Assembly (NCBI RefSeq): GCF_036568125.1
Contig: NZ_DATCTF010000004.1
Coordinates: forward strand, 62,001 to 126,000
Length of the DNA: 64,000 nt
Source of the DNA: Magnetovibrio sp.
Lineage (GTDB): Bacteria; Pseudomonadota; Alphaproteobacteria; Rhodospirillales; Magnetovibrionaceae
Direction of reading: 5' to 3'
Made by a program: the position numbers and the translations under genes. The notes beneath the pieces are model-generated. The model searched no databases and was not told where the DNA came from. It saw only the letters and a program-made list of their open reading frames with translations. Shown one piece after another: positions 37,551-51,205 of the stretch; positions within the stretch are counted from its first letter, which is position 1, and every line of letters begins with the position of its first letter.

Positions 37551-38198
37551 TTATTCCAGATGCTCATGACGTCGGATGCACTCTTTCATCTCAAGGATCA
37601 TGCCCGCCGGATCGGTCCGACTGGGGTGATGAATGACGCGCATCTTCCAGGTTTTTTCAGCCTCGGTCAATTCCTCGGACCAGCGTTTACCCTTGAGAAA
37701 CAGGTATATCCCTGTGGATAAACTGTGCATCTCGGCGAACGCCAAAAGTTTATCCAACGAAGCCAAAGCGCGCGACGTCACCACGTCGGCATTCAGGGGA
37801 GCGAGATTTTCAATGCGATCGTTGTGCACCGTAGCCCCGCAGCCCGCAGCCCGGTTGACCTCGCGCAGAAACGCACATTTGCGCTGGTCACTTTCGACCA
37901 AATGAACATCCAGGGTCGGATCCAAACACGCTAGCACCAAACCGGGAAATCCCGCCCCACTACCGAAATCCACAACTTTTTTACCCTGCGGTACCAAAAC
38001 AGCGATTTGTGCGCTGTCCAACATGTGTCGTTGCCACAAATCGGGCAGCGTGTCAGGCCCAACCAGATTGATTTTGGCCTGCCACTTCACCAACAACTCG
38101 GCGTAAATTTTCAGCCGCGCCAGCGCATCGTCCGATGCTCCTATTGCAGCCTGAAACTCCGCTGCGCTTCTGACCGCGGGGTTGCCGACCTCATTCAT
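37551..38198 (-). CDS. rsmG: 16S rRNA (guanine-527-N7)-methyltransferase
   Basis: The 215-residue RsmG (GidB) shows the SAM-binding stretch KVVDFGSGAGFPGLVLA and further marks NLVGPDTLPDLWQRHMLDS and VTSRALASLDKLL. It makes m7G527 in 16S rRNA, whose loss gives low-level streptomycin resistance in several bacteria. It sits between mnmG and parA in the order normal for alphaproteobacteria. A perfect parS lies 24-39 bases upstream of its start. Confidence 0.95.
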   Translation of the reverse strand: MNEVGNPAVRSAAEFQAAIGASDDALARLKIYAELLVKWQAKINLVGPDTLPDLWQRHMLDSAQIAVLVPQGKKVVDFGSGAGFPGLVLACLDPTLDVHLVESDQRKCAFLREVNRAAGCGATVHNDRIENLAPLNADVVTSRALASLDKLLAFAEMHSLSTGIYLFLKGKRWSEELTEAEKTWKMRVIHHPSRTDPAGMILEMKECIRRHEHLE

Positions 38199-38221: not shown

Positions 38222-38237
38222 TGTTTCACGTGAAACA
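38222..38237. promoter_or_regulatory. parS site 1 (ParB-binding centromere)
   Basis: TGTTTCACGTGAAACA is identical to the universal 16-bp parS sequence. It lies in the 66-base gap between mnmG and rsmG, about 12 kb from the proposed origin. Confidence 0.97.
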
Positions 38238-40211: not shown

Positions 40212-40227
40212 TGTTTCACGTGAAACA
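40212..40227. promoter_or_regulatory. parS site 2 (ParB-binding centromere)
   Basis: A second exact TGTTTCACGTGAAACA, in the 133-base gap between mnmE and mnmG. It is 1990 bases from site 1. The flanks are alike too (AATG before, TTG after in both). Confidence 0.97.
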
Positions 40228-48891: not shown

Positions 48892-49923
48892 TTAGGCTTC
48901 GCCGCGCACCAAAGCACACAAACGCTCGACGTGTTCCGGCGGGGTTTGCGGCACGATTCCGTGGCCGAGATTGAAGATAAAGGGACCTTGACCCAAAATT
49001 TCAAGGATGCGCGCAACCTCGCGCTCCATCTGCTCGCCACCCGCAACCAACAACAGATTGTCCAGCGTGCCCTGAACCGTCGCCAAAGGTTGTAGCACGT
49101 CGCGCGCCCATTCCAGCGGCACGGTGTGATCGAGACCGATGCCATCGACCTTGGTTTCGCGGATGTAGGCTTCGTAAAGCGGTCCCGCACCACGGGGAAA
49201 CCCAATGATCGGCACGTTCGGGTGCACGGCTTTGACCCGCTCGACGATGCGCGCCATCGGTTCGATCGACCATTTGTAAAACTGTTGTTCCGACAACACA
49301 CCGGCCCAGCTGTCAAACACCTGCAGACATTCGGCGCCACGGTGCACCTGTTCGATTAAATACATCGATGTGCTTTCGACCAACATGTCGATCAAGCGCT
49401 GGAAAAACGCCGGATCGGAGTACGCAACCGACCGAACGTCTTCGTAATTTTTACTTCCCTTGCCTTCGACCATGTAAGTCGCGACCGTCCACGGCGCCCC
49501 AGCGAAACCGATCAAGGCGGTGGTGTCGGGAATTTCCTGCGAAAGGCGACGCACGGTTTCGTAAACCGGCGCCAAATGCTGGTGTAAATTGCTAAGATCA
49601 AGCGTCGCTTCCAACTGAGCTTCGTTTTTAATCGGCTCAAGCTGGGGGCCCTGTCCGGACACAAATTCGACCTTTTGGCCCAAAGCGTCGGGAATCACCA
49701 AAATGTCGGAAAACAAAATCGCTGCGTCAAAGGCATAGCGCCGCAACGGCTGCAACGTCACTTCAACGGCCAAATCTGGGGTATAACAAAAATGCAGGAA
49801 GTTGGTCGCTTGGCTGCGGATCTCGCGATATTCGGGCAGATAACGCCCCGCCTGTCGCATGAGCCACATGGGCGGAGGGTTGAGCGTTTCGCCTTGAAGA
49901 GCCTGAAGGAAGCGTTTGGTCAC
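48892..49923 (-). CDS. hemE: Uroporphyrinogen decarboxylase
   Basis: The 343-residue HemE removes four carboxyl groups from uroporphyrinogen III. The signature [17 protein letters not shown] lies near residues 17-33, with [17 protein letters not shown] and GFPRGAGP further on. It is the first gene of the leftward hemE-hemH-hemJ-rho run; hemH begins 18 bases after its stop. It borders the proposed replication origin, as it does in Caulobacter and Rickettsia, and its promoter must lie inside that region. Confidence 0.97.
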
Positions 49924-50054
49924 GTTTGATCAATCCTGATTTTCGAAGAGTTATCCCGTTTTCGAGTGCCCCTAACAAACAATATATTTAGATAAATAAA
50001 AAGGATGTTGTTGTTGTAGTGACGTGGATATCGGGGATTTCTTTTTGCCCCGGA

Positions 50055-50066
50055 GTTTTCCCGGCT
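50055..50066 (+). repeat. GTTTTCCCGGCT, copy 1 of a 12-bp direct repeat in the origin region
   Basis: An exact copy occurs at 50327-50338, and the related GTTATCCCG at 49950-49958. The core is close to a weak DnaA box (TTATCCCG against TTATCCACA). Confidence 0.7.
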
Positions 50067-50316
50067 TTCATGCACAGCCCCTTTTCAACCGATCTCGATG
50101 ATGGTGAAAAGCCTCTGCATAAGATTTTGTTAACCATGAAAACAGCGCTAAAAACGGATAAAATGAAAGTTGTGAATTATGGGGATCGGTTTGAGCATCC
50201 GGTGCCAAACGATGAGATGTCCAGCCGTCGTGGAGAATGTTGTACACTGAGGGCCAAGAGGCTAAAAAGAACCAAGTTATACAAGCATAAATGCCAATCT
50301 CGCATTCGATGCGATT

Positions 50317-50325
50317 TTGTCCACA
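50317..50325 (+). promoter_or_regulatory. DnaA box TTGTCCACA
   Basis: One change from the consensus TTATCCACA, lying directly before the second 12-bp repeat. Confidence 0.6.
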
Positions 50326-50326
50326 T

Positions 50327-50338
50327 GTTTTCCCGGCT
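50327..50338 (+). repeat. GTTTTCCCGGCT, copy 2 of the origin direct repeat
   Basis: Identical to 50055-50066; it sits one base after the DnaA box. Confidence 0.7.
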
Positions 50339-50386
50339 GAAAAAGCCCTGCGTTCGACACGATAGACTTAAAGGCCTTGGGCTCAC

Positions 50387-51205
50387 ATGACGTCATTGAT
50401 CTTACATAAAATTTCCGACAGCACCGGTGAAACGCTGGATGTGGTCGCGCGTGCATGTTTGGTTCAGTTTCCCGACGTCAAAGTGATCGAAAAACGTTGG
50501 ACCATGGTCCGCAATCAAGCTCAAGTGAATGAAATCCTGAGTGAAATCGAGGCCAACCCGGGCTTTGTCATCTTCACTTTGGTCGATGACGACTTGACGG
50601 AAAAGCTGGTGCATGGATGTAAGAAATTCAAAGTCCCGTGTATCGATTTGCTCAATCCGGTGCTAGGTCAACTCGGAAACTACTTGGGTGTCGAACGTGA
50701 ACACCGTCCCGGCAGCCAGCATGTCATGGATGCGGATTATTTTTCCAAGATAGCCGCTCTGCACTTCGTTTTGGCTCACGATGACGGTCAGTCCATGCAC
50801 GATATCGACGATGCCGATGTTGTGTTGATGGGCGTGTCGCGCACCACCAAAACGCCGACGTGTATTTATCTCGCCAATCGCGGTATCAAAGCGGCGAATG
50901 TGCCGATTGTGCCGGGTATGGCGCTTCCCGACGAGGCGCTACGCGCCAGTCGACCATTGATCGTCGGTCTGACCAAAGATCCGCGCCGGTTGGTGCAAAT
51001 CCGCCGCCAGCGCTTGAAAATGCAGGGTCACACCGAAGAAACCGATTATATCGATCCCGATGCGGTGGCCCAGGAAATGCGTGAGGCCAAGCGCCTGTAC
51101 GCCGAACACAATTGGCCGGTGATAGACGTCAGCCGCAAATCGGTTGAAGAAACCGCGGCGACCATTTTGCATCTGTACAACGAACGCCTCGATGCGGCCT
51201 CCTGA
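50387..51205 (+). CDS. ppsR: Pyruvate, phosphate dikinase / PEP synthase regulatory protein (DUF299)
   Basis: The 272-residue protein is a bifunctional serine/threonine kinase and phosphorylase that switches PPDK or PEP synthase using ADP and phosphate. The opening LILHKISDSTGETLDVVARA and the P-loop GVSRTTKTPTCIYLANRGIK (in part) are typical. It is the homologue of Rickettsia RP001, the first gene right of the origin. maf starts within its last codons. Confidence 0.94.
   Translation: MTSLILHKISDSTGETLDVVARACLVQFPDVKVIEKRWTMVRNQAQVNEILSEIEANPGFVIFTLVDDDLTEKLVHGCKKFKVPCIDLLNPVLGQLGNYLGVEREHRPGSQHVMDADYFSKIAALHFVLAHDDGQSMHDIDDADVVLMGVSRTTKTPTCIYLANRGIKAANVPIVPGMALPDEALRASRPLIVGLTKDPRRLVQIRRQRLKMQGHTEETDYIDPDAVAQEMREAKRLYAEHNWPVIDVSRKSVEETAATILHLYNERLDAAS

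Follow-up and report, generated by a model that had tools for sequence, protein, structure and literature searches.

The non-coding gap between hemE and ppsR (49924-50386) is very probably the chromosomal replication origin, oriC, of this marine Magnetovibrio sp., as the original prediction had proposed. GC skew, parS sites, synteny and sequence conservation all concur on this location. The case is built on a switch in strand composition, nearby parS sites, conserved neighbours and a set of conserved, mostly weak DnaA-box-like sites, and this comparative evidence makes the assignment close to certain; the origin would be ordinary in kind. The part worth testing is a conserved, thymine-centred array of three-base units beside the AT-rich stretch.

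Positions refer to the window, the whole 64-kb stretch of DNA that was analysed, which corresponds to bases 62001-126000 of contig C4 (289,970 bases) in a draft genome of 19 contigs and 3,392,337 bases. We compared it with 110 loci anchored on ppsR, a set that includes the window's own locus and some species twice. These yielded 98 distinct hemE-ppsR gaps, of which 18 come from the host's family (one from each of 18 family genomes) and 6 from its genus. By ppsR identity (85-87%), the closest named relatives are three genomes assembled from metagenomes and labelled Magnetovibrio sp. Of 193 class genomes searched, 136 had a ppsR match, and the best 29 of these, the window's own apart, supplied further alphaproteobacterial loci.

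Strand composition, partition sites and gene order

The sign of the GC skew changes from minus to plus at window position 49-51 kb, and the cumulative skew reaches its minimum at 49509-49777, within the start of hemE. Left of this switch the skew is negative apart from local stretches near 19-23 kb, 28-31 kb and 45-48 kb, and all 2-kb steps starting at 49 kb or later are positive. The same signs hold on C4 outside the window, where the samples to the left are negative (3/3) and those to the right positive (7/7). The original prediction had placed the skew minimum of the full chromosome at this gap. Because the genome is a 19-contig draft, whole-chromosome skew could only be sampled, over about a quarter of its length, with C1 and C3 unscored and C2 and C18 given one sample each; the minimum agrees with the gap.

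All ten samples on C10 are positive, and 10 of the 13 other contigs scored at two or more points keep a single sign. On C14, clearly positive values (+0.068, +0.049) give way to values around zero (-0.028 to +0.016), a terminus-type change, and the replication terminus may lie on or near this contig. C12 is negative, with three weakly positive samples among 16, and C17 (40 kb) drifts from -0.010 to +0.019; given these two exceptions, a second, minor skew switch is possible.

A family relative assembled as one contig (G006; 3,066,297 bases) gave a single minus-to-plus switch over 20 samples. Its minimum, calculated over 1945001-1985000, falls at 1963460, about 0.4 kb past the corresponding gap and, again as in the window, within hemE; the plus-to-minus switch falls between 340 and 480 kb, half a genome from the gap. 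In G033, which belongs to another family, the minimum within 3385001-3445000 lies some 4 kb away from ppsR, and one distant sample has the wrong sign. It should be noted that the deposited sequences of both G033 C1 and G041 C1 start at dnaA; in G033 this start is not the origin, since the skew minimum lies near 3.42 Mb, about 410 kb from dnaA across the circle.

Searching the whole genome for parS at up to one mismatch recovered only two sites, both exact (TGTTTCACGTGAAACA), flanking gidA at 10-12 kb from the gap, with parA and parB close by. The site at 38222-38237 lies between gidA and an open reading frame (37551-38198) that we take, from gene order alone, to be gidB; the site at 40212-40227 lies between gidA and mnmE. 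The nearest exact parS is 9-22 kb from ppsR in all eight chosen relatives, one of which, G045, has two additional exact sites about 130 and 300 kb off.

The gap is bounded on the left by hemE (48892-49923, minus strand; Pfam URO-D, 2.6e-121) and on the right by ppsR (50387-51205, plus strand), encoding a COG1806 / DUF299 kinase-pyrophosphorylase (Pfam Kinase-PPPase, 1.2e-92). As predicted, hemE, hemH and rho run leftward and ppsR and dnaQ rightward, and the two flanking genes are those of the Caulobacter crescentus (Cori) and Rickettsia prowazekii origins, which are also of similar length (PMC1914354, PMC8959179). The spacing between hemE and ppsR is 312-574 bases in 108 of the 110 loci, the contig ending too early in the remaining two, and the same order was found in 29/29 further class-level loci (the best 29 of 136), with gaps of 336-702 bases. 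This synteny is not universal, since ppsR was not detected in 57 of the 193 class genomes, nor in 5 of 60 nearer relatives.

Coding explanations for the gap were rejected. An in-frame stop (TGA, 49930-49932) just before the hemE start argues against an extension of that gene, and the open frame at 50019-50390 (123 codons) is crossed by genus alignment gaps that are not in threes. No Rfam match was found in 49700-50600 up to E = 1; a non-coding RNA such as Caulobacter CcnA has no Rfam support, though the gap may still yield a transcript.

DnaA boxes and conserved blocks in the gap

The gap contains seven DnaA boxes at up to two mismatches, a number reached by none of 500 dinucleotide shuffles (mean 1.54) and by none of 271 other window stretches of 463 bases. 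The exact sequence TTATCCACA does not occur within it. On its own, a box at up to one mismatch carries little weight, as at least one was seen in 67/500 dinucleotide shuffles and in 13/271 of the other stretches. The main box TTGTCCACA (50317-50325, plus strand, one mismatch), already singled out by the original prediction, lies on the ppsR side and is conserved in place: a plus-strand box at up to one mismatch is present 57-90 bases ahead of ppsR in 16/18 family gaps. Searched for at 25-90 bases ahead of ppsR, such a box was found in 50 of all 98 gaps, against a mean of 0.5 and a maximum of 3 in 100 dinucleotide-shuffled sets; this tally is by position, the first site neighbouring the aligned box in L013, L096 and L100 and lying off the aligned column in L105. 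The genus alignment adds a weak box-like site, TTTTCCCG (50328-50335, plus strand), behind the main box.

At 56% A/T, the gap has a composition reached by only 3 of 635 same-size window stretches, positions overlapping the gap being counted. The AT-rich stretch expected next to hemE is borne out, with 38 A/T among the 50 bases at 49974-50023, a richness exceeded by 52 of the 63,950 50-base stretches in the window. The part at 49974-50004 is the probable unwinding element, and its right portion, ATAAATAAAAAGG (49992-50004), is identical in 6/6 genus gaps.

When the six genus gaps were aligned, 134 of 443 ungapped columns were invariant. These columns are clustered, with a longest run of 13 and, in the best span of 30 columns, 25 invariant ones, each reached in 0/2000 column shuffles. 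The longer invariant pieces comprise AGTTATCCCG (from 49949), ATAAATAAAAAGG, CGGGGATT (from 50032), TGTGA and TGGGGA (50171-50185), GTTGTACACT (from 50239) and the CACAT of the main box (50322).

Most of these pieces coincide with weak DnaA-box-like sites. AGTTATCCCG (49949-49958, plus strand), identical in 6/6 genus gaps, adjoins hemE; the weak-box-like pattern TTWTCCCG occurs seven times on both strands of the 64-kb window, three of them in the gap and all three on the plus strand. The box ATATCCACG (50023-50031, minus strand, two mismatches), also forecast, turned out to be part of the best-conserved element; at the aligned place the five other genus gaps have TTATCCACG in two cases and ATATCCACG in one, and two differ. 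It is followed head-to-tail by a second weak box, AAATCCCCG (50032-50040, minus strand, four mismatches), whose CGGGGATT (50032-50039) was found in 18/18 family gaps. The weak box TCATGCACA (50068-50076, plus strand) retains TTCANNCACA in all six genus gaps and TTCATNCACA in five, and the weak box TAATTCACA (50171-50179, minus strand) sits within the conserved block holding the invariant TGTGA and TGGGGA. A last conserved block (50229-50248) combines the weak box TTCTCCACG (50229-50237, minus strand) with GTTGTACACT (50239-50248), identical in 6/6 genus gaps.

Two other features of the gap were noted. A 24-base direct repeat (79%) occupies 50043-50066 and 50315-50338, 272 bases apart; both copies contain a TTTTCCCGG site and the second also contains the main DnaA box. 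GANTC (CcrM) sites are absent from 49924-50386, and at least one is present in the gaps of many relatives.

Could the gap be only the shared promoter of hemE and ppsR, with its blocks serving as promoter or regulator sites and the origin lying elsewhere nearby? The two genes do diverge from it, and some blocks, such as GTTGTACACT, do not clearly resemble DnaA sites and could belong to a promoter. We nevertheless consider this highly improbable, as the skew switch coincides with the gap here and comes within 0.4 kb of its counterpart in G006, the seven box-like sites far exceed the shuffle mean, and the AT-rich stretch, the array and its box are conserved together. An origin located at dnaA, or at some other DnaA-box cluster, would be more improbable still. 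The gene dnaA lies at C4:232590-234143, about 120 kb from the gap, so that the expectation of its absence nearby was right, and this distance is in line with what PMC8116508 says of Rhodospirillales; tight box clusters also occur, among the matches listed, at C12:31926-31968 and C11:191202-191276. However, the sample around dnaA (C4:230001-238000) and six other right-hand samples are positive, C11 is negative in 5/5 samples, C12 is negative around its cluster, and both clusters look regulatory, the C12 one lying directly before a gene for a dnaG-like primase and the C11 one before a gene for a B12-type ribonucleotide reductase (both named by reading the proteins). The C12 cluster (L151:2926-2968) consists of TTTTGCACA, TTATCCACA and TTATCCACA within 43 bases, and the C11 cluster (L152:3202-3276) of three boxes within 75 bases; control of primase by DnaA through the former, and of nucleotide supply through the latter, are possible.

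The original prediction also included a CtrA half-site, TTAACCAT, at 50130-50137. The site is indeed present, but it is not conserved, occurring in 2/18 family gaps, a level reached by 44/500 shuffled sets. A Caulobacter-type origin blocked by CtrA through this site is accordingly very unlikely, even though the 64-kb window has no other such site, a CtrA with 70% identity to part of the Caulobacter protein is encoded in the genome, and one genus relative, L005, has a half-site together with a full TTAA-N7-TTAA near the aligned place. The full box was found in 1/98 gaps, and the half-site arises in 50/2000 shuffles of the gap itself. We rejected CtrA control of the origin for this lack of conservation, and the absence of conserved sites agrees with PMC4468827.

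A three-base array beside the AT-rich stretch

Between the AT-rich stretch and the box at 50023 lies a period-three array (50008-50022, plus strand) of three TTG units followed by TAG and TGA, the TGA being nearest the box. It is placed and oriented like a DnaA-trio, the units being read outward from the box in the 3' to 5' direction, and its register is present in 18/18 family gaps. Because a search for TNG runs fixes the T and the G by construction, we re-examined the register on the 18 family gaps lined up solely by CGGGGATT. Guanine was found at -25, -22, -19, -16 and -13 in 17, 16, 18, 18 and 18 gaps, respectively, and thymine at -27, -24, -21, -18, -15 and -12 in 14, 15, 18, 18, 17 and 18; the guanine of the box-nearest unit (-10) is kept in just 10. 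Going outward from the box, the commonest middle bases are A (15), A (14), T (17), T (13), T (15) and T (9). The T-N-G register is nearly fixed across the family, and adenine is the usual middle base only in the two units nearest the box.

TNG runs were found in 44 of the 98 gaps, against 3 on the opposite strand and between 1 and 10 in each of ten shuffled sets. By group, they occur in 18/18 family gaps, 26/80 other gaps and 12/29 gaps of the class sample. Thymine predominates as the middle base over these runs in the family (T 50, A 26, G 10, C 2), and adenine in the other gaps (A 47, T 24, G 22, C 1) and in the class sample (A 22, G 12, T 12). Other families of the order have TAG, TGG and TTG units at the same place, L106 for example having TAG four times. 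Loci L020-L083, largely Acetobacteraceae, show a TNG run in only 10/62 gaps, some of them at other places, and our claim for the array is therefore limited to the family and part of the order. The core pattern without mismatch occurs once in the genome, and TTGTTGTTGTAG alone twice.

With respect to the published rule for DnaA-trios, which calls for a box with no more than two mismatches at a distance of 0-16 bases, ATATCCACG has two mismatches and lies 0 bases from the first unit. Our own version of the rule, asking for at least three NAN units, gave five matches in the gap, all with 0 exact GAT units; the two matches listed fall outside the array, which itself has one adenine-centred unit.

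Taken together, the placement and conservation of the array incline us to see in it a DnaA-trio variant, which DnaA would use to open the AT-rich stretch. More tentatively, the single-strand element that DnaA grips at the family's origin may have changed its code, the G and T of each unit being held and the middle base, decisive in B. subtilis, relaxed to thymine in the outer units, alongside a DnaA with tyrosine at the position of the middle-base contact Asn187. The array would then be a natural, conserved 'deviant' DnaA-trio, read by guanine rather than adenine. Deviant trios without the middle adenine have been suspected (PMC8287927), and the phrase 'degenerate DnaA-trio' appears in a Campylobacter jejuni paper (PMC6052347). 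Both the hemE-COG1806 origin rule (PMC1914354) and a broad trio survey are already in print; in the open-access main texts searched, neither this origin nor a thymine-centred array in the family was found described.

A less likely reading, still to be reckoned with, keeps the gap as the origin but treats the TTG array as a single-strand motif of the E. coli kind, TTGT or TT[G/A]T(T), or just as DNA that melts readily, and not as a trio read three bases per subunit. The stretch 50008-50017 contains TTGT three times, and TTGT and TTATT are E. coli DnaA motifs on the upper strand (PMC10316083). The G found at every third base (-25 to -13) in 16-18 of 18 gaps, the TA that mostly begins the box-nearest units, and the TAG arrays at the same place in other families sit better with a three-base reading, and the two readings predict different effects of a one-base shift.

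Relation to known origins and to DnaA

Like the origins of Caulobacter and Rickettsia, the gap has an AT-rich part, few strong boxes and several weak ones (PMC1914354, PMC8959179). It differs from them in its lack of conserved CtrA sites, in the distance to dnaA and in having no Rfam match, and its boxes are of a different number, order and spelling. The flanking genes, the skew shift, an AT content above that of the genome and the several DnaA boxes that define the hemE-COG1806 class were all found here; of the CtrA sites, which concern Caulobacter and possibly Rickettsia only, there is the one unconserved half-site.

The basal unwinding system of Bacillus subtilis, made up of two DnaA boxes, a spacer and DnaA-trios, offers a close parallel in layout for the hemE side of the gap. 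Shared features are the order box, box, three-base array, AT-rich DNA (PMC8287927, PMC10721633), the strand and direction of the array, with 3'-GAT-5' units read away from the box (PMC8287927), and, in most family gaps, adenine-centred units adjoining the box. In contrast to B. subtilis, units 3 to 5 are mostly thymine-centred and DnaA has Tyr for Asn187. The TTGT of the E. coli oriC unwinding element, where the motifs are TTGT and TTATT (PMC10316083, PMC10797057), also occurs here on the expected strand and side; in contrast to E. coli, it forms part of a strict three-base repeat that touches the box. A tandem three-base repeat inside the unwinding element is likewise a feature of the Thermotoga maritima eTrio, with three TAG repeats there and mostly TTG here (PMC10316083).

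These likenesses suggest how the origin might open. DnaA-ATP would collect on the ppsR-side box and on weak boxes across the gap, and the two head-to-tail minus-strand weak boxes (50023-50040) would direct a DnaA filament leftward onto the plus strand of the array, whose T-N-G units would be held one per DnaA subunit. The AT-rich stretch would then open, the helicase be loaded there and forks depart both ways.

In B. subtilis, the first two bases of each trio unit are captured, the adenine via Asn187 (PMC10721633). Strand separation by B. subtilis DnaA was slower when trio 1 had thymine instead of its adenine, and initiation was less frequent in strains whose trios 1-3 carried thymine than in those carrying cytosine (PMC10721633). 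Because thymine hampered the B. subtilis trios, an array centred on thymine might fail to act as a trio. The residue aligned with Asn187 is Tyr in 30/30 DnaA proteins compared (the best 30 of 59 genomes with a match). A change in DnaA as the cause of the thymines was rejected, the Tyr and its neighbours being the same in all 30, including those of families with TAG arrays; since the Tyr is invariant with A and T arrays alike, the protein does not track the change of middle base. The tyrosine could permit thymine without explaining it.

The specificity of DnaA for the origin is held to rest in part on contact with the DnaA-trio adenine (PMC10721633), and a family that keeps the three-base register while losing the adenine in most units would be a natural test of the adenine rule. 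In practical terms, the array together with CGGGGATT may serve as an origin mark in draft genomes of the family.
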